A stretch of 64,000 nt of DNA from Archangium gephyra (lineage in GTDB: Bacteria; Myxococcota; Myxococcia; Myxococcales; Myxococcaceae). Below the pieces are notes generated by a model. The model worked only from the letters and a program-made list of their open reading frames with translations, had not been told where the DNA came from and searched no databases. The translations under genes were made by a program, and so were the position numbers. The first letter of the stretch is position 1. Every line of letters starts with the position of its first letter. Positions 2,361 through 64,000 of this stretch are shown here, in pieces. The stretch is from NCBI RefSeq assembly GCF_001027285.1, contig NZ_CP011509.1, forward strand, positions 7,092,501-7,156,500, read 5' to 3'.

Positions 2361-5057
2361 TCAGCCGCGGACCTCCGCGCCCTCGCGCTCCAGTGCGTCC
2401 AGGGCGGACGTCATGGCCTCCACCAGCGCCGCCTCGTCACCGGGGCCCTCGACCTTGGCGCCCTGGCGGGTGACGTAGAACGAGTCCACGGCGCGGTGGG
2501 CCTCGGTGGCCACCTTGGCGAGGGCAATGCCCGCGCCCGCGCGAGTCAGGGCGGAGGCGATGGCGTACAGGAGGCCCACGCGGTCCTGGGCCACCACATC
2601 CACCACGGTGAAGTCGCGGGAGGCGCGGTTGTCGACCGTGACCTTGGGAGCCACGGGAGGCAGGTGCCGTTGCAGGACGGAGCCGGAGCGGCGCCGGCGC
2701 AGCACGTCCTCGATGGTGGTGCCGCCGGAGAGGACGCGCAGGAGATCCGTCCGGGCCATGCGCCAGCGCGAGCGCTCGAGCAGCAGCCCATGCGGGGGGC
2801 GCACATCGAAGACATCCAGGGCGAGCCCGTCCGAGGTGGAGACGATGCGGGCCGAGAGGATGTCGATGCGGTGGGCGGAGAGCACGCCGGCGAGCAGCGC
2901 GAGCAGACCGGGCCTGTCCTGGACGGCGAAGGACAGCTCGCTGTAGCCGGCGTCCGGGTGGTGGCGCAGGGCGGCGGCGAAGGGGCGCTTCCGGGCGCAC
3001 GCGAGCAGCCGCCCGTGGAGCGTGGCGCGTGAGGGATCCGTCCCGAGGAAGTACCGCTCGGGGAGCACCTGGCCCAGCTCACGCGCCCGCGGCTCACCGA
3101 GGACACGGGCCCAGCGCGCGTGGAAGCGCTCGCGCAGGTGCTCGGAAGAGCCCTCCCCTCGCGGAGCCGCCGAGCCCACCAGGTGGGCCCGGGCCTTGTC
3201 GTACAGCTCGCGCAGCAGCTGGGCCTTCCAGCCCGTCCACATGCGCGGCCCCACCGAGCAGATATCCGCCCAGGTGAGGAGGTAGAGACAGGTGAGCTTC
3301 TCCACGTCGCCCACCTTGCGAGCGAAGTCGGCGATGAGGGCGGGATCACTCAGGTCGCGGCGCTGGGCGGTGTGGCTCATCGCCAGGTGATCCTTCACGA
3401 GGAACTCGGCCACCTCGCGCTGGCGGGGCGTCAGGCCCAGCCGCTCGCCGAGGGCCACCATGAGCAGGCGGCCCTTCTCCGAGTGATCGCCGCCCATCCC
3501 CTTCCCCGCGTCGTGCAGGAGCATGCCGAGGTAGAGCGGGAGGGGATCCTTCAGATCTCGCATCTCGCGGGAGAGCTCGGGCTCCTGCGTGACGAGGTCT
3601 CCCGCGCGCAGGCACTGGAGGCGGCGCACGGCGAAGAGGGTGTGAACGTCGACGGTGTACACATGGTACAGGTCGTGCTGGTGGTGGGCGGTGACGCGGC
3701 CGAACTCGGGCACGACGGCGCCGAGCACACCCGCATCGTGCAGGGCGAAGAGAAGCTCGCCGCGAGTGCCGGGCCGGGCGAAGAGGGCCTTGAAGGCGGA
3801 GAGGACGGCGGGGGTGGCGCGGGCGGCCTCGAGCGCGGGCAGGGCCTGCACGGCCTGCTCGCGGGCCCACGAGTAGAGGGGCAGCCCGTGCTCCTCGGCG
3901 GTGCGGAAGAAGTCGAGGATGGTGGCGGGCTCGCGGGTGAAGAGGCCCGGGTCCGACACGGTGAGCTTGCCGCGGAACACCTTGAAGGCGCCGATCCGGC
4001 GCTCGGGGAAGAGGGAGATCTTCCGGGCGGTGCTGAGCTCCTCGCAGCGGGCGATGAGCGCGTCGGCGGCCTGACGCAGGGCATGGGCGGACAGGTAGTA
4101 GTCGCGCATGAAGGCCTCGACGGGCAGCACGGGGCCCTGCTGGTAGCCGAGGAAACGCGCCACCTCCTCCTGGAGCTCGAAGGTGAGCCGGTCCTCCTTG
4201 CGTCCGCGCAGGAAGTGGAGCTGGTGGCGGATGCGCAGGAGGAAGTCGCGGGCGGCCTTGAGGCGCGTCACCTGCGAGCCCGGGAGGATGGACTGCTGGA
4301 GCAGACCGGTGAGGCCGCGCGTGCGGAAGCGGACGCGGGCGATCCACAGGGCGGTCTCCAGGTCTCGCAGACCGCCATTGCCCTGCTTGAGGTTGGGCTC
4401 GAGGAGGAAGACGGAGTCGCCGAAGCGCTCGCGGCGGGAGCGCAGCTCCTGGACCTTGTCCTGGATGTAGGCGTCGGCGCGGTGGGTGAGGAGCTCGGGG
4501 AGGACGTCCTCGGCGAGGTGCTGGAAGACGGCGGCATCGCCGGTGACGAAGCGCGCATCGAGCAGTGCGGTGCGGATGGTGTGGTCGGAGTCGGCGGCGC
4601 GGGCGCACTCGTCGGGGCCACGGGCGCTCCAGCCGACGGCGCGCTTGAGATCCCACAGGAGCGTGGGGAACGCGCGGGCCAGGGGGGCGGTGGCCTCCTC
4701 GGAGACACCGGGGCCGCGCAGGAGGAGCAGATCCAGGTCCGAGTGGGGAGACAGCTCGCGGCGCCCGTAGGAGCCGAGCGCGACGAGGGCGAGTCCCGGA
4801 GGGGCGTGGAGCTCGGCGGAGAGCTCGGCGAAGAGCGCCTGGACGAGCCGATCCGTGGCGGCGGAGAGGAGGCGGCAGGTGGAGAGGCCGGCGGCCCCCT
4901 CGCGGTGGAAGGCCTCGACGCGGGCGTGGGCCTCGCGAAGGTACTCCCGGGCGCGGGCCAGCCGGTCCTCGGGACCACCGGAGCGCAACTCCGGGAGCGA
5001 ACCGAGGGCCTCGCGGTGAGAGGGCGCGGGGGGCTGCGGGATGGGCGGGACGCTCAT
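2361..5057 (-). CDS. glnD: [Protein-PII] uridylyltransferase / uridylyl-removing enzyme GlnD
   Basis: This encodes 898 residues, starting at the ATG at 5055-5057 (MSVPPIPQ); a 17-residue longer start would overlap the upstream gene. GlnD senses glutamine and modifies PII. The nucleotidyltransferase signature GSYGRRELSPHSDLDL is at about 95-110, giving the G-S..D-x-D metal site. The GlnD-PUTase middle region follows. The HD hydrolase motif LLHDAGKG lies near residue 515 with HSEKG after it. Two ACT domains close the protein (about 700-775 around VQDRPGLLALL and 815-890 around AQDRVGLLYAI). Length and order match the family (about 890). It lies 19 bases after a glycosyltransferase gene on the same strand, an unusual partner. 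Confidence 0.95.
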   Translation of the reverse strand: MSVPPIPQPPAPSHREALGSLPELRSGGPEDRLARAREYLREAHARVEAFHREGAAGLSTCRLLSAATDRLVQALFAELSAELHAPPGLALVALGSYGRRELSPHSDLDLLLLRGPGVSEEATAPLARAFPTLLWDLKRAVGWSARGPDECARAADSDHTIRTALLDARFVTGDAAVFQHLAEDVLPELLTHRADAYIQDKVQELRSRRERFGDSVFLLEPNLKQGNGGLRDLETALWIARVRFRTRGLTGLLQQSILPGSQVTRLKAARDFLLRIRHQLHFLRGRKEDRLTFELQEEVARFLGYQQGPVLPVEAFMRDYYLSAHALRQAADALIARCEELSTARKISLFPERRIGAFKVFRGKLTVSDPGLFTREPATILDFFRTAEEHGLPLYSWAREQAVQALPALEAARATPAVLSAFKALFARPGTRGELLFALHDAGVLGAVVPEFGRVTAHHQHDLYHVYTVDVHTLFAVRRLQCLRAGDLVTQEPELSREMRDLKDPLPLYLGMLLHDAGKGMGGDHSEKGRLLMVALGERLGLTPRQREVAEFLVKDHLAMSHTAQRRDLSDPALIADFARKVGDVEKLTCLYLLTWADICSVGPRMWTGWKAQLLRELYDKARAHLVGSAAPRGEGSSEHLRERFHARWARVLGEPRARELGQVLPERYFLGTDPSRATLHGRLLACARKRPFAAALRHHPDAGYSELSFAVQDRPGLLALLAGVLSAHRIDILSARIVSTSDGLALDVFDVRPPHGLLLERSRWRMARTDLLRVLSGGTTIEDVLRRRRSGSVLQRHLPPVAPKVTVDNRASRDFTVVDVVAQDRVGLLYAIASALTRAGAGIALAKVATEAHRAVDSFYVTRQGAKVEGPGDEAALVEAMTSALDALEREGAEVRG

Positions 5058-5076
5058 GGAAGAGGTTCTATCGCTT

Positions 5077-6579
5077 TCAGGGCTTCGGCCAGAGCCGTAC
5101 CCAATCATCCTGGATGAGCTTGCCGCTCGTCCGGTCGGTGCTGCCGCTCGCCATGAAGTCGCGGGGACCGCGCAGGGCGAGCGTCCCGGCCTCGAGCCAC
5201 AGCAGCAGCAGGGAGCACGAGGCGAGCACCGGGAGTCTCCAGGCCAGCAAGGGGCGGCTGTCGGCGAACGCCTTCAGGGGCAGCAGGAGCAGCGGCACCA
5301 GCACGGGAAAGAGGACCAGCATGCCACGTGTGTACCCGAAGAAGGCCAGGGTGATGAGCGCGCGGTGCAGCAGCACCAGGGTGAACAGGCTGAAGGCCCG
5401 GTGCGGCGCGCGCAACGAGAGCCCCGCGCCCAGCAGCAGCAACAGCGCGAGCGGCCACTTCAGCCAACTGCTCTCCGGGACGAAGACATCCACCGGCGCG
5501 CGAGCCCCCTCGAGCCCTCCAGGCAGGTTGGAGGCGCCATACCCGAGGCTCAGGCCGTCCAGCCAACGTCCCAGCTTGGCGGCCAGCAGGCGGGCCGCGT
5601 CGGCGGGGTGCTCGCCCATCCACCGCAGCCCTTCCGCATAGCCATGCAGCAGCAGGTGGCGCTGGGAGGGATTGGCCGCGTCCAGCCGGCCGTCCTGGCC
5701 GAGCCGGTTGACCAGGTCCGGCGTGAAGCCGCCCGTGGCTCCGGCGTGGTTGGCCATGGCGAAGTTGATGGGGCCATAGACGGTGACGGGGGCCACCACT
5801 GGCAACGGCTCGAGCTCCGGCGCCCGCGCGTTGAGCTCCTGAAGCACACGCGCGTTGTGGAGCGCCCACGGCGCGAGCACCACCAGGGACACGCCCACCG
5901 CACCCGCCCACCGCACGAGTTGCGCGCGCCCCGGGGCTCCCCTCTCCCGGTGGAGCCAGGCGTAGACGAGCAGGAAGGGCCACAGGTGCAGGTGCTCGGC
6001 CCGGGTGAGCGCGCCCAGCCCCATCACTCCGCCCAGGAGCACCGCGCCCTTCCACGACGGCCCGCTCCGGTGCTCGAACATCAGCCAGCACGTGGCCGAC
6101 AGGAAGAGCACATACAGAACCTCGTTGCTGTACGTCGTCGAGAGCACCAGCCAACCGAAGCTGGCCGAGAAGAGCACCGCGGCCAGCAGGCTCCACCCCA
6201 CCCCGAGCACCCGGCGCCACCACCACCAGGTGAAGGCCACCGTGGCCGAGTTCAACAGCGCCAGGCTCAGCTTGTAGGGCCAGGCGCTGCCTCGCGGCTC
6301 TCCCAGGAACTGGTACAGCAGCCCGAGCGCCCAGGGAAACAACGGCGGGTGGTACGGGAGCGACGCCTGCGCGGGCCGCCCGCGGGCCCAATCGAGCGCA
6401 TACGCGTGGAAGAAGCGCGAGTCCCCGTAGAAGAAGATGGAGAACGGCCAGTTCCGATCCATCGACGCCTCGAGGAACAGCAGCCGCAGCACGAGGCTCA
6501 GCAGGAACGTCCCGAGGACTCCCACGGCCACGGCGTGCCGCGTCAGGAATCCAGGAAGGTTGAAGCTTGGCGTTTTCAT
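5077..6579 (-). CDS. GT-C type membrane glycosyltransferase (ArnT/PMT-like)
   Basis: This encodes 500 residues with around ten hydrophobic helices. After the first helix comes an acidic/aromatic luminal loop (FFYGDSRFFHAYALDW), then a Pro/His-containing helix start (LPYHPPLFPW). Those are hallmarks of the dolichyl/undecaprenyl-phosphate sugar-dependent GT-C families (PMT, ArnT, Pfam PMT_2 group). It would transfer a lipid-linked sugar at the outer face of the inner membrane; substrate unknown. The start ATG (6577-6579) lies in the divergent region shared with the metalloprotease. It is followed after 19 bases by glnD, so read-through into glnD is likely. Also possible is an O-antigen-ligase-like or uncharacterised GT-C member. 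Confidence 0.7.
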   Translation of the reverse strand: MKTPSFNLPGFLTRHAVAVGVLGTFLLSLVLRLLFLEASMDRNWPFSIFFYGDSRFFHAYALDWARGRPAQASLPYHPPLFPWALGLLYQFLGEPRGSAWPYKLSLALLNSATVAFTWWWWRRVLGVGWSLLAAVLFSASFGWLVLSTTYSNEVLYVLFLSATCWLMFEHRSGPSWKGAVLLGGVMGLGALTRAEHLHLWPFLLVYAWLHRERGAPGRAQLVRWAGAVGVSLVVLAPWALHNARVLQELNARAPELEPLPVVAPVTVYGPINFAMANHAGATGGFTPDLVNRLGQDGRLDAANPSQRHLLLHGYAEGLRWMGEHPADAARLLAAKLGRWLDGLSLGYGASNLPGGLEGARAPVDVFVPESSWLKWPLALLLLLGAGLSLRAPHRAFSLFTLVLLHRALITLAFFGYTRGMLVLFPVLVPLLLLPLKAFADSRPLLAWRLPVLASCSLLLLWLEAGTLALRGPRDFMASGSTDRTSGKLIQDDWVRLWPKP

Positions 6580-6736
6580 GAAACCTCGTTGAGCCTTCCA
6601 TCGCTATTTCTCATAACCCCCTGGAAAAGACACTCCCGGATAGAGCAGCATTCACGGGCCGTCCGGGTCTCCCAGTACGACGAGAGGGACGAGCGAATCC
6701 AGAAACCCCCGACAGGTCAAACCCAAGAGGTGTGAC

Positions 6737-9100
6737 ATGAAGCGATTCCTTGGCGCCGCGGCGCTCGCCACCGTCCTGAGCTCTGGCGCGAGCTGGGCCA
6801 TCCACCCCGAGCACGGGCCGTCGCGCGGCACCGTGGCTCAGAAGGCCTTCTTCAATCCCGAGCTCTCCATCAGCTCGAACAATGTCGAGCTGCGTGAGGC
6901 CCGGGCGAAGGGGAAGCTGAACCCCGCGAGGGAGCGGGCGTTGAGCGACTTCCTCCAGCGCTACGGGAAGGACACCAACGTCTACCTCGAGCCGCGCTCG
7001 GGAGCGGTCTCCGGCATCCATGCGCGCATCCCGATGATCCCGGGCGACGGAATGGACAACCGGGTGACGCTGAGCGGCGTGGGCCAGAGCCTGGGCCGCG
7101 CGGTGTCCACGGTGGACGAGTCCCTGGTGGGCGAGCTCGTCGTCCGGTTCGCCCGCGACCACGCGGAGGTGCTGGGGATCGATCCGTCGCAGCTCGGCAC
7201 GCCGCGCGTCACGCAGGTCACCGAGCACCTCTGGCAGGTCCACATCCCGCAGCAGATCCAGGGCATCCCCGTGCGCGAGGGCCGGCTGGCGGCCACCCTG
7301 AGCCACGGCAACCTCGTGCTCATCGGCACCGAGGGCTGGGCCGACGTGAAGATCCGCACCCTGCCGCTCGTGGCCGCGGATCAGGCGCTGGAGCGGGGCC
7401 TGGCCCGCGCCGGACTGGCCCACAGCCCCAAGTCCATCTGGAAGGACGCGAACCTCGAGGTGGTGCCCACCTCGGAGGGTGAGGGGTACGGCCACAAGCT
7501 CGTCTGGGCGTTCGGCTTCCAGGACGAGGGGGACGACGCCACCTGGGAGGTGCTCGTCGACGCCCACAAGGGCGAGGTGATCGCCCTCGAGGACAAGAAC
7601 CAGTACCTCGACGCGTCCATCACCGGCGGCGTCTACCCGCTGACCAACACGGAGATCTGCCCGACCGATGGGACGTGCGGCTCGATGCAGGCCAACTACC
7701 CCATGCCGTGGGCCAACACCGGCCTGGTGAGCCCCAACAACTTCACCAACGGCGCCGGTGTCTTCAGCTACACCTCGGGAACCGTCACCACCACGCTGAG
7801 CGGCAAGTACATCGGCATCAGCGACCGGTGCGGCACCGTCAGCAACGGCTCCACCACCGGCAACCTCAACCTGGGCGGCACCAACGGCCAGCACGACTGC
7901 ACCACGGGAGGCGGCTCCACGGGCAATACCCCGGCGGCCCGCGCCGCGTTCTACGAGCTGAACAAGCTGGCGGAGCAGGCGCGCGGCTGGCTCCCCAGCA
8001 ACACCTGGGTCAACGCGAAGCTCACCGCCAACGTCAACATCGCCAGCACCTGCAACGCGTACTGGAGCTCCGGGACGGTCAACTTCTACCGGAGCGGCGG
8101 CGGCTGCCGGAACACCGGGGAGATCGGCGCGGTGTTCGACCATGAGTGGGGCCATGGCATGGACGACAACGATGCCAACGGCACGCTGAGCGCCTCCAGC
8201 GAGGGGTACGCGGACATCGCGGCCATCTACCGGCTGCAGACGTCCTGCGTGGGCCACGGCTTCTTCGCCACCAGCAACAGGGGCTGCGGCATGACGGCGG
8301 ATGGGACGGGCTACAACCAGAACGAGGCACAGTCGGGCGCGGCGCACTGCGATCTCAACTGCTCGGGCGTGCGCGACGCGGATTGGGCCAGTCACTCGGA
8401 CAACACCCCGGACACGCCGCAGAACCACGTCTGCGTCCGGTGCACCAGCTCGACGGGCCTGTGCGGCCGCCAGACGCACTGCGCCGCCGCGCCCACCCGC
8501 CAGGCCGCGTGGGATCTGGTGGCCCGCGACTTGCGCGCCGCGCCGTTCAACTACGACGCGAACACCGCCTTCATCGTCGGCAACAAGCTCTTCTACCAGG
8601 GCAGCGGCAACGTCGGCTCGTGGCACGCCTGTGACTGCACCGCGAAGACCTCCAGCGGCTGCGGCTCCACCAACGGCTACATGCAGTGGCTCGCCGCCGA
8701 CGACGACAACGGCAACCTCGCCGATGGCACGCCGCACATGACGGCCATCTACAACGCCTTCAACCGGCACAACATCGCCTGCGCCACGCCGGCGCCGCAG
8801 AACGGTGGCTGCTCGACCGGTCCCACCGCGACGCCCTCCGTCACGCTCACCCCCGGCACCCGCCAGGTAGCGCTCTCCTGGTCGGGCGTCACCAACGCCG
8901 CGAAGTACTGGGTGCTGAAGACCGAGGGCCACGCCGGCTGCAACTTCGGCAAGGCACTCAAGGCCACCGTCACCGGGACCACCTGGACGGATAGCGAGGT
9001 CCTCCCGGGCCGGCCGTACTGCTACTCCGTGGTGGCCGCTGGCTCGAGCAACGCCTGCTACACCCAGGCCAGCACCTGCTCCTGCGTGACGCCCAACTGA
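6737..9100 (+). CDS. Secreted HExxH zinc metalloprotease with propeptide and C-terminal fibronectin-III-like domain
   Basis: This encodes 787 residues. An N-terminal Sec signal (MKRFLGAAALATVLSSGASWA) is followed by a ~270-residue FTP/PepSY-type inhibitory propeptide, with AEVLGIDPSQL and later DDATWEVLVDAHKGEV. The catalytic motif HEWGHG places zinc ligands His469 and His473 and catalytic Glu470; SEGYAD supplies Glu489 as the third ligand. The arrangement is that of M36/fungalysin-like gluzincins. Many cysteines between 500 and 640 imply disulphides. Residues ~690-780 form a fibronectin-III-like domain (VTLTPGTRQVALSWSG). Secreted proteases of this kind fit a predatory, protein-degrading lifestyle. 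A strong terminator follows. Confidence 0.85.
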   Translation: MKRFLGAAALATVLSSGASWAIHPEHGPSRGTVAQKAFFNPELSISSNNVELREARAKGKLNPARERALSDFLQRYGKDTNVYLEPRSGAVSGIHARIPMIPGDGMDNRVTLSGVGQSLGRAVSTVDESLVGELVVRFARDHAEVLGIDPSQLGTPRVTQVTEHLWQVHIPQQIQGIPVREGRLAATLSHGNLVLIGTEGWADVKIRTLPLVAADQALERGLARAGLAHSPKSIWKDANLEVVPTSEGEGYGHKLVWAFGFQDEGDDATWEVLVDAHKGEVIALEDKNQYLDASITGGVYPLTNTEICPTDGTCGSMQANYPMPWANTGLVSPNNFTNGAGVFSYTSGTVTTTLSGKYIGISDRCGTVSNGSTTGNLNLGGTNGQHDCTTGGGSTGNTPAARAAFYELNKLAEQARGWLPSNTWVNAKLTANVNIASTCNAYWSSGTVNFYRSGGGCRNTGEIGAVFDHEWGHGMDDNDANGTLSASSEGYADIAAIYRLQTSCVGHGFFATSNRGCGMTADGTGYNQNEAQSGAAHCDLNCSGVRDADWASHSDNTPDTPQNHVCVRCTSSTGLCGRQTHCAAAPTRQAAWDLVARDLRAAPFNYDANTAFIVGNKLFYQGSGNVGSWHACDCTAKTSSGCGSTNGYMQWLAADDDNGNLADGTPHMTAIYNAFNRHNIACATPAPQNGGCSTGPTATPSVTLTPGTRQVALSWSGVTNAAKYWVLKTEGHAGCNFGKALKATVTGTTWTDSEVLPGRPYCYSVVAAGSSNACYTQASTCSCVTPN

Positions 9101-55249: not shown

Positions 55250-56662
55250 ATGGACGCAACCCCTCCGCCCGCCGTCCGTGTGCGCTGGCTCGTCGCCGGG
55301 GCCTTTCTCCCCGCCCCCTCGGGCCGCCGGTTCCTCCTCACCGAGGCCTCCTTCGCCGAGCAGCTCGGGCGGGCCGGGAGCGGGCTGAGCGTCACCATCC
55401 GGGATCGCCTCGGCTCCGGCGACGCGAGCTCCCATACGCTCTCCTTCGATGGGCTGGAGGCCTTCCAGCTCTCCGCGGTCATCGACGCCCTTCCGGACCT
55501 CCGCACCCTGCGCGCCGTCCGCGACGCGCTCTCCGGCGCGAAAGGCCTCGGACCCCAGGACGCCGCCCGCCTCGAGGAGGGGCTGGGTCCGGGTCTGCTG
55601 TCCTCGGCACTGGCCGGAGCCCTTCGCGGCACGCAGTCACCCCAGGAGGCCCGCGACGCCGCACTGGCCCTCATCGAGGAGGCCCTCTTCGGCACCGCGC
55701 GGGACATCCTCCAGCACCCCCGGGTGGCGCGGCTGGAGTCCGCCTGGCGCGGGCTGCACTGGTTGTGGACGCACTGCCCCGCCTCCGCGGGCATGGACAT
55801 CGAGGTGCTCGACGTGGAGCCCCACCAGTTGGTGGACGCGCTCACCCAGGGCCTCGACGTGCCCGCCCTTCAGCGCCCCGATGCGTGCTTCCTCCTGGAG
55901 CCCCTCGACGACGTGGACACCCTGCACCGGCTCGCGGCGCTGGGGGAGCAGGCCTGGCTGCCCATGGTGGTGGCCGTCCGGGAGGCGCCCGAGCCGGAGG
56001 CGTGGAGCCGGCTGCGCGCGGACGAGGCCTCCCGCTGGCTGTGCGCCGCGCGGAATCCCGTGGTGATGATGGCCGAGCAGCACGGCGAGGTGCACCGCGA
56101 GTGCTTCACCAGCCCCGCGCTCGCCCTGGCGGCGCTGTTGGCGGCGAGCTTCCGGGACACGCGCACCTTCGGCCGGCTGGTGGGACCGGGCAGCGGGACG
56201 CGGGCCCCCGCCGTGTGGAGGCCAGGTGGACGCTCGCCGGTGGCGACCGAGGTGGGCCTCTCGCTGCGGGAACAGCAGCAACTGGCCGCGCGAGGCGTGG
56301 TGGGGGTGGGAGGCTGGTGGGACTCGAACGCCGTGCTGCTGGCGGCGGCGCCCACCGTGTACGGCGGCCGGGATGCCACACCGCTGCCCGCGCAGCTGCT
56401 CACCGGCCGCATCGTCCGCCTCGCCGAGGAGCTCGCCGAGCGCCTTCCCGCGGGAGCCAGCCAGGACGCGGTGTCCGCCGTCTTCACCCGGGCCGCCGAG
56501 GCGTTCCTCCCCACGGGAGGGGCCGGGCGGGCCTGTCAGCTCCAGGGGAAACTGGTGTCCACCGGGAACGGCGAGCGGGCCGTCCAGGTGTTCGCCGCGC
56601 TCAAGCCCGAGCTCGCGGGCACGCACGTGCAGTTGGAGTTCACGCTACCGCTGCACGGCTGA
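55250..56662 (+). CDS. Shrunken TssB-TssC fusion (type VI sheath-like protein)
   Basis: This encodes 470 residues from the ATG at 55250 (GGAGG at 55241). The first ~110 residues resemble TssB/VipA (LSFDGLEAFQLSAVIDALPDLRTLRAVRDAL matches the FxxxDxFxP..L..ipELrkLl pattern in two short pieces). Residues ~140-470 resemble TssC/VipB: RDILQHPRVARLESAWRG, then RWLCAARNPVVMM, GRSPVATEVGLSLREQQQL and AARGVVGVGGWWDSNAVLL. Canonical TssB (~160) and TssC (~490) total about 650, so this is a compacted fusion. It is likely a dedicated sheath-like or regulatory paralogue; core T6SS genes are not seen here. It is operonic with the kinase. Confidence 0.7.
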   Translation: MDATPPPAVRVRWLVAGAFLPAPSGRRFLLTEASFAEQLGRAGSGLSVTIRDRLGSGDASSHTLSFDGLEAFQLSAVIDALPDLRTLRAVRDALSGAKGLGPQDAARLEEGLGPGLLSSALAGALRGTQSPQEARDAALALIEEALFGTARDILQHPRVARLESAWRGLHWLWTHCPASAGMDIEVLDVEPHQLVDALTQGLDVPALQRPDACFLLEPLDDVDTLHRLAALGEQAWLPMVVAVREAPEPEAWSRLRADEASRWLCAARNPVVMMAEQHGEVHRECFTSPALALAALLAASFRDTRTFGRLVGPGSGTRAPAVWRPGGRSPVATEVGLSLREQQQLAARGVVGVGGWWDSNAVLLAAAPTVYGGRDATPLPAQLLTGRIVRLAEELAERLPAGASQDAVSAVFTRAAEAFLPTGGAGRACQLQGKLVSTGNGERAVQVFAALKPELAGTHVQLEFTLPLHG

Positions 56663-56684
56663 GAGACGGGCCTGGGGCTCAGCC
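56657..56684. terminator. Terminator-like hairpin between convergent genes
   Basis: GGCTGAG (56657-56663) and CTCAGCC (56678-56684) form a 7-base-pair perfect stem with a 14-base loop. It spans the stop of the TssBC-like gene and the stop of the convergent gene at 56679. No T-run. Confidence 0.5.
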
Positions 56685-57395
56685 CGCCCAGGGCAGGCCC
56701 TCGGTGTTGTCCTGGAGGTTCTGACCACGGGTCCAGCCGAGCAGCCCGGTGGAGGACTTCACGAGGTACCAGTAGTCCGGGTCCTTGGGCCCCACGGGGG
56801 CGGCGGCGAGCACCTGGATCTTCGAGCCCTCGGCCAGGTTGGCCACCACGGCCTTGTCCTTGGTGCCGCGGACGATCGGGAAGGACTTCTTCACGGTGGC
56901 CTCGGCGCCGACGAAGTAGAGCTCCTGGGGGACGGGGTTGAGCTTCCACGCCTTGCGATCCAGGGCGTACTTCTCGCGACGGTTCCAGAAGCCCATCCAC
57001 GAGTCGGAGAGGACAATGCCGTTGCCCCGCACCTCGGTGAGGGCGTGGGGGCTGCCCAGTTCCTTCAACGCCTTGCCATCGAAGCCGTAGACGATGCTGC
57101 GGTGATCGTCGTCGGTGAGCCCCATGTCGACGGCGACTTCCTTCCACTTGTCGCCGCCATCGAGGTCGATGACGGACACGCCGCGCACCTCGGCGTCGTT
57201 CGTCTTGCCTCGGACGGTGGCGCCGCCCACCTTGAGGACGAACTGCGCGTCACCCTGCCCCCACTGCACGGAGATGGCCTCCGGCTTGCCATCCCCATCC
57301 AGGTCGGCCGAGGTGGACTTCACGGGCTCATCCGCACGCGCCGGGGGCGCGGCGAGCAGCATCAACGCCGCCACGGTCAGGACAGGGACTTTCAT
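56679..57395 (-). CDS. Exported protein with VCBS-like repeat and SH3-like domain
   Basis: This encodes 238 residues. Signal peptide MKVPVLTVAALMLLAAPPARA. A calcium-loop-like DLDGDGKPEAISV starts an integrin-alpha/VCBS-like region (about 25-100, second motif VSVIDLDGGDKWKEVAVD). The C-terminal ~90 residues form an SH3-like domain (KAVVANLAEGSKIQVL, YWYLVKSSTGLLGWTRG), a type that binds peptidoglycan. It is the last gene of a three-gene operon led by the LysM/peptidase/transglycosylase/M23 protein. Position and periplasmic location make it a candidate immunity protein (inference). Confidence 0.75.
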   Translation of the reverse strand: MKVPVLTVAALMLLAAPPARADEPVKSTSADLDGDGKPEAISVQWGQGDAQFVLKVGGATVRGKTNDAEVRGVSVIDLDGGDKWKEVAVDMGLTDDDHRSIVYGFDGKALKELGSPHALTEVRGNGIVLSDSWMGFWNRREKYALDRKAWKLNPVPQELYFVGAEATVKKSFPIVRGTKDKAVVANLAEGSKIQVLAAAPVGPKDPDYWYLVKSSTGLLGWTRGQNLQDNTEGLPWAG

Positions 57396-57401
57396 GCGGT
57401 A

Positions 57402-57746
57402 TCAATCCTCGGAGTTGGCCATCTGCGTCTCCCGCTCTTCCTCGCAGAGGGCCTTGGTCTTGAAGATGACGTACTGCTTGGAGTCGTCCTTCCGGGTGCA
57501 GGCCACCTGCGGCTTGCCGGAAGCGGAGTTGGACTTCTCCTCCAGATCGCACTGGTAGTTCTTCTGGAACTCCTTCAGCAGCTTGTCATCGACGCGAACG
57601 CACTTCTCCTTGCTCGCGGCGTTGTACCAGTTGAAGCCGAACCGACCCTTGAGGGTGGCCAGTGAGGCCGTCTGGGGGGCCGACTCGGCGTACGCCGTGC
57701 CTCCGAGGGCCAGCATGAGCAACACGACTCCAGAGCTTGTCTTCAT
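57402..57746 (-). CDS. Small exported protein, candidate immunity protein
   Basis: This encodes 114 residues with signal peptide MKTSSGVVLLMLALGGTAYA. The mature part is small and charged, with four cysteines (KEKCVRVDDKLLK, NYQCDLEEK, VACTRKD, KALCEEERE) likely to form two disulphides. No family recognised. It begins 17 bases after the multidomain hydrolase gene and ends 6 bases before the next gene, on the same strand. Small exported proteins encoded directly downstream of a peptidoglycan-hydrolase effector are often its immunity protein; that reading is inference. Confidence 0.65.
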   Translation of the reverse strand: MKTSSGVVLLMLALGGTAYAESAPQTASLATLKGRFGFNWYNAASKEKCVRVDDKLLKEFQKNYQCDLEEKSNSASGKPQVACTRKDDSKQYVIFKTKALCEEERETQMANSED

Positions 57747-57763: not shown

Positions 57764-60079
57764 CTACGAGGACGAAGACGACGAGGACGGCAGGTTCGCC
57801 GACCAGGCATCCAGGAAGGGGGTGGGATCCAGCAGATCCTTGCGCCGCTGGTAGGGCTTGTTGTCCTTCGCGGTCAGATTGCCACTCTCGGTGCCCGCGT
57901 ACATCTCGATGTGGAGCATGTCGCTCTCGACCTTGATGCCAACGAGGTGCCCGACCTTGCAGAGCCGCTGGCCCTTCTTCACGGTCTTACCGCCAACGAA
58001 GCTGTTCGGTTGGATCTCTCCGTAGCGCACGATGATCGGGCCGTGCCTGATCTCGAGGGCCTGGGTCCCCGCGTAGAAGTTGTAGGGCTGCTGGATGACC
58101 TCGCCATCGGCCACGGCGTGGATCCACGTCCCCGCGGGGAAGTAGAGGTCGCAACCGGCATGCTTGCGTTTACCGCCACTGCGAAGGGCGCCGAAGACCC
58201 GGGCGCCCGTCTTCCAACTCTGGGAGGGCAGCTTGGGGAACGGGAAGCAGAAGTCGCTCGTCGACTTGGGGTGGCTCCCAACGCCGGTGGAGGCCGTGGT
58301 CGGTTTGAGCTCCGCCGGCTTCTTCTCCGGAGGCCTGGTGATCACCGGCTTGTTCGTCTCCGCGGCACGATCCTGGAGCTGGATCGTGTACGCATCCGCC
58401 TTCGGAGCGATCTTCTTCTCCATGAGCGCATACACCTCGTTCAGGGTGCGCTCGTTCTTCAGGACCACCAGCGTGGTGCCCGAATAGAAGATGGACGGAT
58501 TGGCCTCGGCCGCGTCGGGGAACATGTCGGCCGCGCTCTGGTTGCCCCTGCCCGCATCGCGTGCGGCGAGGAACCTGGCCGCGTTACCCGGGCCGAGGAA
58601 GTGCGCCATGTAGAGCTCGGTCGGGCTCACGCTCCGTCCCAGCTTCTTCGTCAGGAGGGCTTGATTGTCCTTGGCGTACTCCGCCGCCAGCAGCGCGTTG
58701 TAGTTTCCATTCTCGCGCAGCGCGAGGATTTCCTGCGCCTTCTCGGGAGGATTCACCACCCACTTCTTGTCTGATTTGGAATAGGAGATCCGGGCGGCAT
58801 GGTTGGCCAGGCCATGCTTGGCTCCATGCAGTTTGACCATGCCGAGCCAGGACTGCTTGATGAACTGGTACAGACCCACCGCGGAGCTGGTCTTGCCCTT
58901 GGCCGGAATGGAGGTCTTGAAGCTGCTCTCCTGAGCGGCCATGGCCATCATGTACCCGTAGTCCACCCCGACCTTGGTCGCGGCGTTACGGATGATCTCC
59001 TCCACCGCGGGAGGAGCCTGCAGCAGGTCCGGCGCGGCCTTGCTTCCCTTGGAGGCCGTGTTCTTCGGGGGCGTGGTGGTGGTCTTCGGGGTCGGCGTCT
59101 CGTTGGCCGTCGGGGTCTTGGTCTTGGCCGTGCTGGCCACGTTCTTGGCCGCGACCACCACGCCACCTGCCGAGGGAACTCCCGGGCCCCGGTCGAACGT
59201 GGTGCCATTACCCGTCGTGCGGTACTTCGTCTTGTACTTGTTGTCGGCGCTGTCCGCTTCGAGCCGGCCATCCAGCAGCCGGTGCATCGTCATCATCCTG
59301 CCGCCGGCGGGATCATTGACCAGGTAGCGCTTGTCCGGGGTGCGGCCCACGATGAGTATCCAGTGGTCGCCCACCCCGTCGTAGCCCGCCTTCGCCGCCT
59401 TGCCGCGTCCATCGTGATAGTCGACCTGGACGACCACCGGCCGGCCCGCCTTCAGCTCTTGATCGATGACATTCGCATCGACGCTGAAGCGGCGCGTCAC
59501 CTTGACCTTCGGGTTGACCAGCTCCCCCATCCGAGGCCAGGCCTGGATGCCTCCCTCGCTGTTGAAGCCGCCAATCTTGTTCATGAAGCGGTTCATCTCG
59601 TCCGGCGTGACCGCCTGGCCGCCGATGCCGCTGATCGCCATGGCCACGGACGTCATGGCACAGCCGATGTTGCTGATGTCGCTCTTGCCAATGGGCAGAC
59701 GTGCCCAGTCCTCGCGCGTACCGGTGGCGCTGTTGAGGCCCTGCGCGTAGACCGGATAACCATTGTTGTTGGGGAAGGTCCGCCCGTCCTTGAGGAACGC
59801 GGTGGCTCCCGTGGTGGACTGGAGCTGGAGGGTCGGCTCGATGACCGGGAGCGTGGAGCCCGGCTGCGCGCTCCCCGGACTGGCGGAGACCTCCTGCTTC
59901 CGTGGCTGCTGCGCCGGACGGGAAGCCGGCTTGTCCGAGAGGATCAGCTGCTGGCCAGCGGTAATGAGGTTGGCGTTCTTCAGGTGGTTGAGCCTGACGA
60001 GCTCCGCCACGCTGGTGTGGTACTGGCGCGCGATCTCGCTGAGCGTCTGACCGCTCTGGACGATGATGGTACTGGCCAT
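57764..60079 (-). CDS. Four-domain peptidoglycan-targeting protein: LysM, C39-like peptidase, lytic transglycosylase, M23-like
   Basis: This encodes 771 residues from the ATG at 60077-60079 behind GGGGGAG; the frame runs open far upstream but antisense to other genes. No Sec signal. Domains: LysM (3-48, IIVQSGQTLSEIARQYHTS); a papain/C39-like peptidase (about 80-290) with Cys140 in SNIGCAMTS, His239 in GDHWILIVG and Asp256 in VNDPAG; a Thr/Lys linker (300-345); an SLT lytic transglycosylase (355-530) with Glu384 in MAAQESSFK; an M23-like domain (610-755) with His640/Asp644 and His723. The end is a poly-Ser tail. Lack of a signal peptide beside VgrG suggests delivery by a contractile system. 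Confidence 0.85.
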   Translation of the reverse strand: MASTIIVQSGQTLSEIARQYHTSVAELVRLNHLKNANLITAGQQLILSDKPASRPAQQPRKQEVSASPGSAQPGSTLPVIEPTLQLQSTTGATAFLKDGRTFPNNNGYPVYAQGLNSATGTREDWARLPIGKSDISNIGCAMTSVAMAISGIGGQAVTPDEMNRFMNKIGGFNSEGGIQAWPRMGELVNPKVKVTRRFSVDANVIDQELKAGRPVVVQVDYHDGRGKAAKAGYDGVGDHWILIVGRTPDKRYLVNDPAGGRMMTMHRLLDGRLEADSADNKYKTKYRTTGNGTTFDRGPGVPSAGGVVVAAKNVASTAKTKTPTANETPTPKTTTTPPKNTASKGSKAAPDLLQAPPAVEEIIRNAATKVGVDYGYMMAMAAQESSFKTSIPAKGKTSSAVGLYQFIKQSWLGMVKLHGAKHGLANHAARISYSKSDKKWVVNPPEKAQEILALRENGNYNALLAAEYAKDNQALLTKKLGRSVSPTELYMAHFLGPGNAARFLAARDAGRGNQSAADMFPDAAEANPSIFYSGTTLVVLKNERTLNEVYALMEKKIAPKADAYTIQLQDRAAETNKPVITRPPEKKPAELKPTTASTGVGSHPKSTSDFCFPFPKLPSQSWKTGARVFGALRSGGKRKHAGCDLYFPAGTWIHAVADGEVIQQPYNFYAGTQALEIRHGPIIVRYGEIQPNSFVGGKTVKKGQRLCKVGHLVGIKVESDMLHIEMYAGTESGNLTAKDNKPYQRRKDLLDPTPFLDAWSANLPSSSSSSS

Positions 60080-60232: not shown

Positions 60233-61363
60233 ATGCCCCTGCTTCGCTGGAGCCGTTCGTTGTTCGCCGTTGCCGTCGTGCTGGTGGGCTGCAAGCCGAA
60301 CACCTCCGCCGCCGCCATGGCGGATGCAGACGCCGCCACGCAAGCCCCGAGCAAGACACCCGCGCCGGTGCCCACCCCCGCTTCCGGGGCCGCCCTCTCG
60401 TATCTCAAGCCCGTGGGCCCCGAGAAGTGCGAGTGGGTGCGACAAGCACTCCCCTCGGGTGCGCCGACCACGCTCTTCACTTTCGACGGAGCCTGTGGCC
60501 AGTCCGTCCTGGCCTGGAGCCCGAATGGCAAGGAGGGGCTGGTGCTCCACCGGCCCGAGGCCGAGGGGGCCCAGCCGCGCTTGTGGCGGGTGGACTTCAC
60601 CACGAAGAGCGGCAAGCGGTTGGCGCTGGTGGGGTTGCCGGTCCTGGCCACACGCGGCCCCGACAAACCCTTCATCGAGCAGGTGGGCTTCGACGCCCAG
60701 GGCCGCCCGGTGGCGCTCGTCTCCAACATCTACGCCAACCGCAAGCTGGAGAAGGACAAGAGCGGCAAGAGGTTCATCCTCTTCGAGAACCAGCGCTACC
60801 CGGTGGAGAAGTCCGTGAGCTCGCCGGGCCTGGCCCTCGCGTACCGGCTGGAGGGCTCGGACTGGAAGCGCTTCGAGACGAAGGTGAGCACCTACGAGCC
60901 GGAAACGGCCCCGGGCATCAACGCGCTCGACGCCGCCAAGGCCCTGGCACCCGTCCCCGCTCCCCTGCCGGAGGGCACTCCCGGCCAGGAAGCCTCGGAG
61001 AGCGCCGCGAAGATGCTGGACGCCGCCCTGCCTCAGCAGGACAAGGCCAGCAAGTGGATGGCCCTGCCCACTCCGGGTGGGACGCTCCTCTACCGGGGCG
61101 CGGTGGACTACTCGGATGAGTCGTTCTACCCGGCCGCGCCAGCACGTTGGGAGCAGGACGGAAAGCTCGTGGAGCTCGCCGGGTTGAAGGCGAAGGACGG
61201 AGACCGCCTCGGCTTCCAGCTCCAGGACGGGCTGCTGATCATCTTCGTCCTGGGAGAGGATTCGCGCTCGGTGCACGTCTACGACACCCGGACGAAGAAG
61301 AACCTCGCCTCCGTCCAGGGCGTCGAGTCCGCGGCCTTCTGGCCCGAGCCGCCCAAGCCCTGA
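60233..61363 (+). CDS. Lipoprotein, first of a tandem paralogous pair
   Basis: This encodes 376 residues with lipobox FAVAVVLVGC (lipidation near Cys20) after MPLLRWSRSL. A disordered Ala/Pro linker precedes a domain beginning GAALSYLKPVGPEKCEWV. Recurrent strand motifs (LAWSPNGKEGLVL, RLWRVDFTTKSGKRLAL, VGFDAQGRPVAL, RWEQDGKLVELAGL, VHVYDTRTKKNLASV) look like WD/NHL-type beta-propeller blades. The next gene is a clear paralogue. The gene is divergent from the hydrolase operon and upstream of the VgrG-like gene, so immunity or accessory roles are candidate functions. Confidence 0.75.
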   Translation: MPLLRWSRSLFAVAVVLVGCKPNTSAAAMADADAATQAPSKTPAPVPTPASGAALSYLKPVGPEKCEWVRQALPSGAPTTLFTFDGACGQSVLAWSPNGKEGLVLHRPEAEGAQPRLWRVDFTTKSGKRLALVGLPVLATRGPDKPFIEQVGFDAQGRPVALVSNIYANRKLEKDKSGKRFILFENQRYPVEKSVSSPGLALAYRLEGSDWKRFETKVSTYEPETAPGINALDAAKALAPVPAPLPEGTPGQEASESAAKMLDAALPQQDKASKWMALPTPGGTLLYRGAVDYSDESFYPAAPARWEQDGKLVELAGLKAKDGDRLGFQLQDGLLIIFVLGEDSRSVHVYDTRTKKNLASVQGVESAAFWPEPPKP

Positions 61364-61390: not shown

Positions 61391-62509
61391 ATGTCATTGC
61401 TTCGCTGGAGCCGTTCGCTGCTCGCCCTGGGCCTCGTTGTGGCGGGCTGCAAGTCGAACCCCCCCGCCGCCATTCTGGACGCGGGCATCGCCGCCGCGCC
61501 CGCGCCGGACAAGGTGTCCTCACCCACCCCCACGCCCGAGCCCATCACCGGGCCGGCACTCTCGTACTTGAAGCCCGTGGACCCCGAGCGGTGCGCGTGG
61601 ATGCGGCGCCCCCTGTCCTCCGCGGAGCCCACCACGCTCTTCACCTTCGACGCGGCCTGTAGCGGCTCCGAGTTGTCCTGGAGCCCGGATCTCCAGAGGG
61701 GCCTGGTGTTCAACCAGCCCACGGGCGAGGGAGCCCGGCCGCGCCTGTGGCGGGTGGACTTCGCCGCGAAGACGGGCTCACCGGTGGAGCTGAAGGGACT
61801 GCCGGGCGGAATGGGAGCGCAGGGCGCCCACACGCCTGTCATCGCGAAGGCGGGCTTCGACGCGCAGGGACGCCCGATGGCGCTCGTGTATGTCGTCCCC
61901 GAGCTGAAGAAGGAGCAGGACGGCGAGCCCTTCATCACCTTCGAGGGCGAGCGCTATCCGGCGAAGGGCATCGAAGGCACACCCGCTCTGGCGCTCGCGT
62001 ACCGGCAGGAGGGCGCGGATTGGAAGCGCTTCGAGGCCAAGGTGGTTTCCAGTGAAACGGACAGCGTCGACGTGCTCGACGCCGCCAGGCTGCCCGGCCC
62101 CAATCCCTTCATGGCCGACAGCCTGCCCGGGCAGAAGGCCTCGGAGAGCGCCGCGCGGATGCTGAAGGCCGCCCTGCCGCCACGAGACAAGTTCGGACAG
62201 TGGATGGCGCTGACCACCCCGGGTGGAACGCTCTTCTACCGGGCGGAACGGTTGGAGAAGGAGGACACCCCCTCCCCGTCCGCCCCGGTGCGATGGGAAC
62301 AGGACGGGAAGCTGGTGGAGCTCGAGGGGTTGATGGCGAAGGAGGGCGACCCGCTCGTCTTGCGGCTCCGGGGCGACCTGCTGGTCATCAACGTCCTGGG
62401 AGAGGGTTCGCGCTCGGCACACGTCTACGACACCCGGACGAAGAAGAACCTCGCGTCCGTCCAGGACGTCGACCTCGCGACCCTCTGGCCCGAGCCTTCC
62501 AGACCCTGA
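61391..62509 (+). CDS. Lipoprotein, second of a tandem paralogous pair
   Basis: This encodes 372 residues. It is a tandem duplicate of the gene 27 bases upstream: it shares LRWSRSL at the signal, YLKPV, RLWRVDF, GFDAQGRP, WKRFE, RWEQDGKLVEL and VYDTRTKKNLASVQ, with divergence in the middle (residues ~140-230) and a shorter linker. Lipobox ALGLVVAGC. Both copies keep intact reading frames, suggesting both are selected, perhaps with different partners. A terminator-like hairpin follows. Confidence 0.75.
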   Translation: MSLLRWSRSLLALGLVVAGCKSNPPAAILDAGIAAAPAPDKVSSPTPTPEPITGPALSYLKPVDPERCAWMRRPLSSAEPTTLFTFDAACSGSELSWSPDLQRGLVFNQPTGEGARPRLWRVDFAAKTGSPVELKGLPGGMGAQGAHTPVIAKAGFDAQGRPMALVYVVPELKKEQDGEPFITFEGERYPAKGIEGTPALALAYRQEGADWKRFEAKVVSSETDSVDVLDAARLPGPNPFMADSLPGQKASESAARMLKAALPPRDKFGQWMALTTPGGTLFYRAERLEKEDTPSPSAPVRWEQDGKLVELEGLMAKEGDPLVLRLRGDLLVINVLGEGSRSAHVYDTRTKKNLASVQDVDLATLWPEPSRP

Positions 62510-62633: not shown

Positions 62634-64000
62634 GTGAGGACGGCATTCCAGGAGGAGCTCAAACCCGAGTTGACGCTCACCATCGGCGGCCAGTCCTTCT
62701 CCATCCCCGGTGGGCAGGTGAAGCACCTGTCCGTGCGCCTGGCCAGCCACGGCTTCAACGCCTCGGTCACCTTCTGGACCTCGCTGGAGAAGAAGGACGC
62801 GCCGCTCTTCACCGCCTTCCAGAAGCCGGATCTCGTCCAGGTGCGGCTGGCGGTGGCCGCGGTGAACCCCGCGCTCGACTCACCGCCCGCGCCGCTCGTG
62901 GTCCAGGGAATCGCCCGCAGCCGCCGGCTCATCGCCGAGCCCCACGGCAAGGACAAGAAGGCCGAGCGCGTCTTCCGTCGCTACACCTTCGAGTTCGCCG
63001 ACGCCGCCCAGGTGCTCTGGCGCCAGCACCGCCCCGTCGAGCTGCACACGGACATGTCCATGCAGGAGGTGCTCGAGGCCCACAAGGCCACCCTCCAGCT
63101 CTCGTATGACTGGGCCGCGCTGCGGCAGAAGCAGGAGATGCTGTGCCTCGCGGTGGGCGCGGATGCCCCCGAGGTGAGCTTCTACGACTTCGTCCTCTGG
63201 TACGTGCACGCCCACAACGGCGTCTTCAGCTACGACTGCCAGAAGAACGAGTACCTGCTGGCCGACAGCAAGCCCTCGGGCACGGCGGAGCCGCTCGATC
63301 GCCTCCAGGTTCGGCACGTGGACGTGCGGCTGCCGCAGCCCATCCGCCACGGCACCCGCGTGCTCAACGCCCTGGCCAACGGGCCCACCACCACGCCCAT
63401 CGAGCAGCCCCAGGCCGTCGCGGGCGTGTCCCACGACGTGTTGCTGCGCACGCCCATCACCGCCCAGGCCGAGCAGCGGCAGAAGCTGGAGAAGGCCCGC
63501 CTGCAGGTGCGCCAGCGGCAGCTGCAGCTGTCCTTCAAGCACTTCCCCACGGTGCCCGTGCATGCCGGCGCACTGGTGCGCCTGGAGGGCCCGCTGTGGC
63601 CCGCGGCGTTGACGGGGCTGGACGAGGACCAGCGGGTGCTGGAGCTGGAGCTGGAGGCCCACGCCGAGCGCGAGGGCCAGCACGACAACCAGCAGACGCC
63701 CCAGGCCAACTACCAGGTGATGATGTCGGCGCGGCTGGAGTCCGCCTCGGAGCCGCTGGTCACCCTGCCCGCCTACCGCGCTCCGCGCTACCCCATCCAC
63801 GTCGAGGCCCTGGTGCACAGCCCCGGCGGCGAGCCCCCGGACAGGCGCTACCTCATCGTCGAGGACGAGAAGACGTCGCTGGCGTACTTCCGGATGACGG
63901 TGCCGCTGTGGAACCAGACGGTGAGCGTGCCCGCCGAGCCCATCCACTTCCCGGGCCAGTTCTTCTTCCCTCCGTACAAGAACACGCGGGTGCTGATCGC
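62634..64000 (+). CDS. VgrG/GpD-like spike protein, N-terminal part (runs off window)
   Basis: The frame begins GTG at 62634 behind GGGGAGGA and is open to the window end (455 codons). The N-terminal region (LTLTIGGQSFSIPGGQVKHL, then VRLASHGFNASVTFW) resembles the beta-barrel of VgrG/phage GpD. It continues with YTFEFADAAQVLWRQH, HTDMSMQEVLEAH and YDFVLWYVHAHNGVFSYDC, the gp27-like order where the family has W/L-rich and F-x-x-x-S-x-x-x-I/V blocks. VgrG forms the tip of a contractile injection system and carries effectors. The needle domain would be in the missing part. T6SS is preferred over phage because of the TssBC-like gene nearby. Confidence 0.7.
   Translation, partial: MRTAFQEELKPELTLTIGGQSFSIPGGQVKHLSVRLASHGFNASVTFWTSLEKKDAPLFTAFQKPDLVQVRLAVAAVNPALDSPPAPLVVQGIARSRRLIAEPHGKDKKAERVFRRYTFEFADAAQVLWRQHRPVELHTDMSMQEVLEAHKATLQLSYDWAALRQKQEMLCLAVGADAPEVSFYDFVLWYVHAHNGVFSYDCQKNEYLLADSKPSGTAEPLDRLQVRHVDVRLPQPIRHGTRVLNALANGPTTTPIEQPQAVAGVSHDVLLRTPITAQAEQRQKLEKARLQVRQRQLQLSFKHFPTVPVHAGALVRLEGPLWPAALTGLDEDQRVLELELEAHAEREGQHDNQQTPQANYQVMMSARLESASEPLVTLPAYRAPRYPIHVEALVHSPGGEPPDRRYLIVEDEKTSLAYFRMTVPLWNQTVSVPAEPIHFPGQFFFPPYKNTRVLI

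Follow-up and report, generated by a model that had tools for sequence, protein, structure and literature searches.

A leaderless LysM protein with three predicted wall-cutting domains, a candidate type VI secretion effector of Archangium gephyra

We analyzed a 64,000-nucleotide stretch of the Archangium gephyra chromosome (contig NZ_CP011509.1, positions 7,092,501–7,156,500 of the 12,489,432-base single-contig genome), referred to here as the window, and focused on the gene P0001, which encodes a 771-amino-acid (aa) peptidoglycan hydrolase. This protein carries a LysM domain, a C39-type cysteine peptidase, an SLT-type lytic transglycosylase and an M23-fold domain, shows no secretion leader, and is encoded among genes of a type VI secretion system (T6SS). 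We consider it fairly probable, from sequence and surroundings, that P0001 is an antibacterial T6SS cargo effector. Its secretion and toxicity, the bonds that it cuts and the immunity roles in its system are what we infer. The neighboring hub-like gene is not a proven VgrG, and membership of P0001 in the class of T6SS cargo effectors is unproved.

Results

P0001 is a genuine gene for a four-domain protein

The model used to score codon usage was built from nine window genes, P0001 among them. The gene gave a log-odds of +240, and +208 once it had been removed from the training set, whereas the 399-codon open stretch upstream in the same frame gave −129, indicating that P0001 is a genuine gene. 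Its position, strand and frame had been given exactly in an earlier reading of the bare sequence (the original prediction). GC content was 0.635–0.666 over 57–60 kb of the window and slightly higher, 0.67–0.735, in the flanks.

Domain searches of each segment with Pfam hidden Markov models confirmed the predicted four-domain make-up. LysM, Peptidase_C39_2 and Peptidase_M23 passed the cut-offs (Table 1), and SLT, at residues 362–410, fell half a bit short (E 2.9e-4; 20.8 bits against a cut-off of 21.3). A sequence search of the PDB further matched residues 352–558 to gp144, the endolysin of phage phiKZ (structure 3bkh; E 7.6e-22). An AlphaFold model, built on a 17-row alignment, had a mean pLDDT (predicted local distance difference test) of 74 and a pTM (predicted template modeling score) of 0.40, and the four domains appeared as folded blocks joined by low-confidence linkers. 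When this model was submitted to Foldseek, 3bkh was the top match (E 3.4e-8), followed by a large number of M23 structures, LytM among them (TM, template modeling score, 0.70 on the target); 3SLU was also among the M23-fold matches, and a C39 structure was not found among the best 50. P0001 thus has the N-terminal LysM and the following C39_2 domain with Cys-His-Asp of a LysM-C39_2 hydrolase and combines at least two predicted wall-cutting domains in one polypeptide. Neither a PAAR nor an Rhs delivery domain was detected in it by Pfam.

Next, we considered the catalytic residues. Homologues were sought at 30 loci, of which 29 yielded one, and the 27 longer than 300 aa were retained. Cys140, His239 and Asp256 were invariant in all 28 aligned sequences (P0001 and the 27 homologues), and Glu384 was kept in both homologues that aligned across the SLT block. 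The residues on which the original prediction had staked its reading of the peptidase and transglycosylase (Cys140, His239 and Glu384) are thus conserved. The SLT block is like gp144 in sequence, in fold and in an aligned glutamate, since Glu384 falls on glutamate 115 of gp144, which we take to be the catalytic residue of that enzyme. It is unlike gp144 in context, as the latter is a phage lysis enzyme with other partner domains. Blocks of the gp144 type were present in 4 of 195 genomes of the phylum. As for the predicted capacity to bind the wall and to cut both peptides and glycans, the required domains are present, and three cuts appear likely from the sequence, one of them by a variant M23 domain described below.

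P0001 and its homologues show no visible leader

The presence of a leader was judged by hydropathy alone. The best 11-residue Kyte-Doolittle mean in the first 45 residues of P0001 was 0.65, with nothing leader-like, and four neighboring proteins with leaders gave values of 2.37, 2.75, 2.99 and 2.63. The 27 homologues, whose starts were taken from our own gene finder, did not exceed 0.78 at their N-termini. An in-frame upstream start that would add a leader was rejected on the codon log-odds of the upstream stretch and on the starts of the homologues. These results agree with the earlier view that Sec export is unlikely.

The M23 domain is a Glu/Met variant

Canonical M23 enzymes bind zinc through H-x3-D and the second His of an HxH motif; the first His of HxH and a His about 30 residues earlier have been proposed to activate the water (PMC9662197, a review). 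P0001 retains the three zinc ligands as H640 and D644 (H-x3-D) and H723 (second His of HxH), and Glu688 and Met721 stand where the canonical enzyme has its two catalytic histidines. The prediction of an M23-like domain holds for the fold and the zinc ligands, with the refinement that both canonical catalytic histidines are replaced.

A profile scan of genome contigs returned 48 loci from several phyla. The profile had three rows. Because the search patterns held Met-Leu-His or H-x3-D, they favored Met721 from the outset, but they did not include Glu688. Glu stood at 688 in every one of the 37 Met721 loci (two of the 37, L152 and L159, are apparently the same records as L101 and L102 used for the profile). 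The four His721 loci carried His at 688, and in the remaining seven of the 48, position 721 was Gly or Cys and position 688 varied. The three zinc ligands were all kept in 35 of the 37 Met-type loci, the exceptions being one Asn for Asp and one truncated sequence. Because Met was always accompanied by Glu, the Glu/Met M23 domain looks like a distinct active-site subfamily rather than a product of decay. A degenerate domain was considered and judged unlikely, given this co-occurrence and the kept zinc ligands. Glu688 may act as the base. The main text of the M23 review (PMC9662197) makes no use of the word "glutamate", and our literature search for M23, glutamate, general base and T6SS effector found nothing on a Glu variant by title.

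The M23 subfamily is found beside vgrG genes at some loci

Canonical vgrG genes were then located around the M23 loci. The test covered L126–L162, with flanks of up to 6 kb, some shortened by contig ends. A canonical vgrG lay within 6 kb of 8 of the 37 Met-type loci and of none of the 11 non-Met loci in the same scan. The eight were from Minicystis rosea (L126 and L127), Acinetobacter (L137, L139 and L142) and Burkholderia (L153–L155). Five of the eight VgrGs had been in the first profile, and the search was hence repeated with profiles trained on Burkholderia alone or Acinetobacter alone, each of which found the same eight; the VgrGs in L137 and L153 were also confirmed by Pfam. In Acinetobacter pittii, VgrG is followed in order by proteins of 178 aa, of 796 aa with Glu/Met M23 at its end, and of 154 aa, the last being lipoprotein-like. 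The gene that comes after VgrG in Burkholderia stagnalis (L153) codes for a LysM-M23-phage lysozyme protein. At L131, an extracellular contractile injection system (eCIS) core domain is fused to Glu/Met M23. A survey of Acinetobacter lists LysM and Peptidase_M23 among the toxin domains near vgrG (PMC6838775). On these gene arrangements, the Glu/Met M23 subfamily is tied to contractile injection.

The single protein at L131:5323-8067 combines the eCIS core domain and Glu/Met M23 with PG_binding_1 and a lipase-like fold, and L127:6001-11516 of M. rosea has two Glu/Met M23 stretches in tandem, each adjoining its own VgrG gene.

T6SS genes flank P0001 at a variable site

A sheath-like gene lies 1.1 kb from P0001 on one side, and a hub-like gene lies 2.6 kb away on the other. 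Two lipoprotein genes (A and B) and the hub-like gene are divergent from P0001 and upstream of it. We named the gene starting at 62634 hub-like, and not VgrG, because its profile matches are marginal and the canonical VgrG profile finds nothing; its identity on sequence is unproven. Beyond the window on the hub side, starting 7.2 kb from P0001, there follow genes for an IglE-like lipoprotein, TssM, TssL (DotU), TssF, TssE (gp25), TssK, TssC and TssB, and a DUF4280 gene. ClpV, TssG and a canonical VgrG were not identified in this T6SS cluster, and its Hcp-like gene had no Pfam match. A paralogue (42%) of the hub-like gene is located within the cluster between TssE and TssF. Relatives of the hub-like gene occurred in 53 of 96 genomes of the family, one of them marginal. 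The possibility that further hub-like copies are orphans accompanied by effectors was rejected, as all 11 examined lie among T6SS genes.

Between TssE and TssF, a 200-aa gene (L039:12721-13323) stands next to the 550-aa hub-like gene (L039:13366-15018); the two are perhaps a split spike, presumably as in the Francisella system. Several relatives (L179–L189) have a T6SS cluster with a hub-like gene; in some of them the cluster is more distant (about 35% identity in the hub) and runs TssB, TssC, Hcp-like, two unannotated genes, a short gene, hub and TssF. A few kb past the T6SS genes, L040:3686-9538 encodes a 1950-aa protein of ASH/Cep192/HYDIN-like immunoglobulin domains.

The interval between the sheath-like and hub-like genes was compared in 13 hub neighborhoods of relatives; 12 proteins from seven of them were scanned with Pfam, and the rest were compared with the window proteins by BLAST. 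Eight of the 13 had the sheath-like gene close to their hub-like gene. Wall hydrolases were found at the site in one of them, genome G039. There, the interval holds an 840-aa LysM-VanY-glucosaminidase-PG_binding_1 protein (L089:6185-8707; VanY a fraction under the cut-off), and a lipoprotein of the A/B family is encoded between it and the hub gene. Just past the sheath-like gene is a 1091-aa LysM-LysM-GH46-Amidase_2-phage-lysozyme protein (L089:11767-15042). Both proteins are without a visible leader, and each has four or five wall-hydrolase or wall-binding domains by Pfam.

Other relatives carry different contents at this site. In G004, whose hub is 89% identical, the sheath-like and hub genes are 115 bases apart, and, in a comparison with the window sequence immediately after 56662 and ahead of 62634, a remnant of the P0005 gene end (L086:13165-13279) is retained beside the sheath-like gene; G004 has thus probably lost nearly the whole interval by deletion. 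A recent insertion in the genome of P0001 (G000), as the empty site of G004 might suggest, was rejected on account of this remnant. G003 and G006 keep P0005 together with other genes, including a kinase (Pfam), and G006 has tyrosinase-like, YHYH and sigma-54 activator proteins as well (Pfam). In G005, a 644-aa protein adjoining the hub gene (L093:5401-7335) has a weak Lipase_3 match (5.6e-6) and is possible lipase cargo.

Table 1. Position and basis of P0001, its domains and neighboring genes in the window
Feature	Coordinates	Strand	Basis or remark
T6SS sheath-like gene (VipB N-terminal segment)	55250..56662	+	Pfam VipB 7.3e-14
P0005, 238-aa secreted protein	56679..57395	−	Relatives in 55 of 96 genomes
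P0004, 114-aa secreted small protein with four cysteines and a leader; candidate immunity protein	57402..57746	−	Position
P0001, 771-aa multidomain peptidoglycan hydrolase	57764..60079	−	ATG at 60079, stop ends at 57764
M23-fold domain, residues 639–730 (H640/D644/H723, E688/M721)	57890..58165	−	Pfam Peptidase_M23, E 2e-10
gp144-type lytic transglycosylase, residues 352–558 (E384)	58406..59026	−	3bkh sequence match, Foldseek
C39_2-like cysteine peptidase, residues 136–258 (C140/H239/D256)	59306..59674	−	Pfam Peptidase_C39_2, E 2.4e-10
LysM domain, residues 6–47	59939..60064	−	Pfam, E 1.6e-12
Lipoprotein A (P0003), 376 aa; candidate immunity protein	60233..61363	+	Lipobox judged by eye
Lipoprotein B, paralogue of A, 57% identical	61391..62509	+	Sequence
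Hub-like gene, continues beyond window end (642 aa in L039)	62634..63998	+	VgrG identity unproven

Candidate immunity proteins

P0004 is a candidate immunity protein by its position, and lipoproteins A and B are candidates by the co-location of their family with C39 homologues. With ATG 57746 as its start, P0004 begins 17 bp downstream of P0001 and on the same strand; the gene finder preferred 57716, which is 30 bp further in. Its relatives were found in 2 other of the 96 genomes, one as a 32-residue match (a fragment), and no match to P0001 was detected in 20 kb around them. P0005 was rejected as a specific immunity protein because it is widespread (Table 1).

The lipoprotein A/B family was found in 63 of the 96 genomes. 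For pairing with C39 homologues we counted 94 lipoprotein places in 62 genomes, with split rows merged and three weak ones (G090:C226, G080:C23 and G080:C228) left out. Pairs less than 6 kb apart numbered 16 in 13 genomes, this one included, compared with 0.13 expected under uniform placement; kinship inflates this count, several of the 13 being closely related, and we estimate six or seven separate settings. A further 20 lipoprotein neighborhoods were chosen for having no C39 homologue nearby. Among four neighbor proteins scanned with Pfam there, only that of L118 (genome G006) was a wall hydrolase, namely an 830-aa PG_binding-NlpC/P60 protein (2941–5433) adjoining a family lipoprotein (5582–7036). 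A structure model of the lipoprotein was mostly beta (mean pLDDT 84), and Foldseek returned weak propeller matches, kelch and TolB (TM 0.32, root-mean-square deviation 12.5).

Homologues of P0001

The full four-domain protein occurred only in this genome among the 96 of the family. G063 and G026 have LysM-C39-SLT proteins at 54–55% identity without M23, and in G018 the parts lie on two contigs. A genome-contig search with P0001 confirmed no relative, and no phage or plasmid record covered 80% of it. C39 homologues were present in at least 61 places in 42 of the 96 genomes at the cut-off (E 6e-13 or better); this count leaves out five weaker rows (G085:C19, G061:C406, G057:C8, G055:C102 and G064:C1), three short ones, the SLT fragment G018:C282 and rows with LysM only. 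Six other C39 homologues were scanned with Pfam in full, and their C-termini were GH19, glucosaminidase, ordinary SLT or without a match.

Discussion

How P0001 would act as an effector

As an effector, P0001 would be made without a leader, loaded onto the spike or tube of the neighboring T6SS and delivered by injection to the periplasm of a prey or rival cell. There, LysM would anchor it on peptidoglycan, where the gp144-type transglycosylase would cleave glycan strands and the C39 cysteine peptidase would cleave peptides. The zinc-binding M23-fold domain, with Glu688 in place of the histidine base, would cleave a further peptide or amide bond. The producer's own periplasm would be guarded by P0004 and/or lipoproteins A and B. 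A fuller version is put forward tentatively, namely that of a three-activity T6SS effector with its own anchor that would open glycan strands and peptide bonds of two kinds at once, would carry in its Glu/Met M23 fold a distinct class of zinc hydrolase used widely as a toxin module of contractile injection, and would be neutralized by a new propeller-like lipoprotein immunity family common to several hydrolase types.

Delivery as cargo of a contractile system, as originally proposed, remains our leading explanation. The absence of a visible leader in P0001 and 27 homologues, the T6SS genes on both sides, the M23 subfamily beside vgrG or, once, fused to an eCIS core domain, the site in G039, the pairing of family lipoproteins with C39 homologues and the precedents of TsxE and Tae17 speak for it, and the LysM-C39 family, with no T6SS link in 21 neighborhoods, speaks against it. 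The proposed look beside vgrG genes turned up members of the M23 subfamily, and no canonical VgrG was found near P0001 itself or in those 21 C39 neighborhoods.

Several observations weigh against the effector reading. Neither the window nor the 40 kb that follow it (L039 and L040) gave a match to the canonical VgrG profile. The hub-like gene had no Pfam match, and its profile matches, to PdpA (0.042) and canonical VgrG (0.092), were marginal and fell in the same region. No VgrG was found within the flanks covered at 29 of the 37 Met-type M23 loci. Many copies of the lipoprotein family have no C39 homologue nearby. The 21 other C39 neighborhoods contained no canonical VgrG and, by BLAST, no T6SS gene matching this cluster, and the closest relatives, in G063 and G026, were without such T6SS genes or an adjoining immunity candidate. 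With 61 C39 places, it is not very unlikely that one would lie near T6SS genes by chance.

Alternative explanations

The last of these points lead to the alternative that survives best, namely that P0001 is a member of a family of myxobacterial LysM-C39-X hydrolases without leaders, which exit the cell in some other way (lysis, vesicles or an unknown exporter) and serve predation, its placement beside the T6SS being incidental. The spread of C39 homologues over 42 genomes and the 21 neighborhoods just described are consistent with this, as is the variation of the C-terminal enzyme (GH19, glucosaminidase, SLT and others) while the 27 homologues are all without leaders. It accounts poorly for the added M23 domain, whose subfamily has VgrG nearby at 8 of the 37 Met-type loci and at none of the 11 others, and for the further LysM multi-hydrolases that G039 carries at this edge of the T6SS. 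We consider this alternative possible, although doubtful.

Two others are very improbable. An enzyme of T6SS assembly that opens the producer's own wall locally, like TagX or MltE, would fit the adjoining T6SS genes and the reported need of some T6SSs for a peptidoglycan hydrolase, but G004, despite its 89% identical hub, is without P0001, as are 12 other hub neighborhoods, and P0001 lacks the leader that would take it into the producer's periplasm. Capture of a phage endolysin, or a prophage remnant, is suggested by the jumbo-phage endolysin type of the SLT block and by 188 phage records that match part of P0001 (the best 15 of the 188 all matching the SLT block), but none of 50,697 phage records covers 80% of P0001 or encodes all four domains, its identified neighbors are T6SS, lipoprotein and signaling genes, and relatives of the C39 and M23 parts are found in bacterial genomes.

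Comparison with known effectors

Returning to the effector reading, P0001 most likely works like the multi-enzyme T6SS cargo effectors of the Tse4, Tae17 and TseP kind. Of these, Tse4 was reportedly described by Le et al. in 2021. Relatives of Tse4 may include the M23 genes linked to VgrG in A. pittii and Acinetobacter haemolyticus (L137 and L139).

T6SS effectors with two peptidoglycan-directed activities, namely Tse4, Tae17 and TseP, have been called rare in papers of 2024–2025 (PMC11796386, PMC11893102). Tae17 of Acinetobacter baumannii AB307-0294 resembles P0001 in being a modular protein with LysM, a lytic transglycosylase and a Cys-His amidase joined by flexible linkers, and it is VgrG-linked and toxic in the periplasm (PMC11796386). 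It differs in having two enzymes instead of three, with a CHAP/Tae3-like amidase instead of C39_2 and no M23 mentioned, and in its Ig-like N-terminus, which faces VgrG17 together with LysM in the published model (PMC11796386). Similarly, Tse4 of A. baumannii ATCC 17978 unites a transglycosylase and an endopeptidase in one T6SS effector (PMC11796386, PMC11893102, PMC10433429). TseP of Aeromonas dhakensis is also like P0001, in that a Zn-dependent amidase domain is fused to a glycan-cutting domain; its amidase was superposed on 3SLU, and it binds VgrG2 (PMC11893102). As noted above, 3SLU is also one of the M23-fold matches of the P0001 model. However, the glycan-cutting domain of TseP is a lysozyme and not a transglycosylase, and neither LysM nor M23 appears as a word in the main text (PMC11893102).

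Effectors of the WHIX double-toxin group have one or two toxic domains, and several peptidoglycan-targeting domains, some of them M23-like, can occur in one effector as in P0001; the WHIX export domain and one immunity protein per toxin are features of their own (PMC12135965). In the myxobacterium Myxococcus xanthus, TsxE is likewise a LysM-bearing T6SS effector, with an Amidohydrolase-2 domain, the immunity protein TsxI and a position downstream of vgrG2 as its own features (PMC5801462). LysM, C39, transglycosylase and M23 in one protein were not found among the titles and abstract starts of the open-license literature listed on T6SS and myxobacterial hydrolases. The original prediction knew of no earlier description of the combination. 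Our best reading is that the exact four-domain set, found in this genome only among the genomes and records searched, is a new variation on a kind already known, the multi-enzyme peptidoglycan T6SS effectors.

Significance

If P0001 is an effector, its three enzymes on a LysM anchor, without a leader and in a lineage of predators, would illustrate the reach of such domain stacking, and the two further multi-hydrolases of G039, at and beside the same site, would extend this picture. The Glu/Met M23 domain raises a testable question for loci in several phyla, namely whether the base is Glu688 and what bond the domain cleaves. The lipoproteins, as a candidate family of immunity proteins, might also lead to other myxobacterial effectors that have so far been overlooked.

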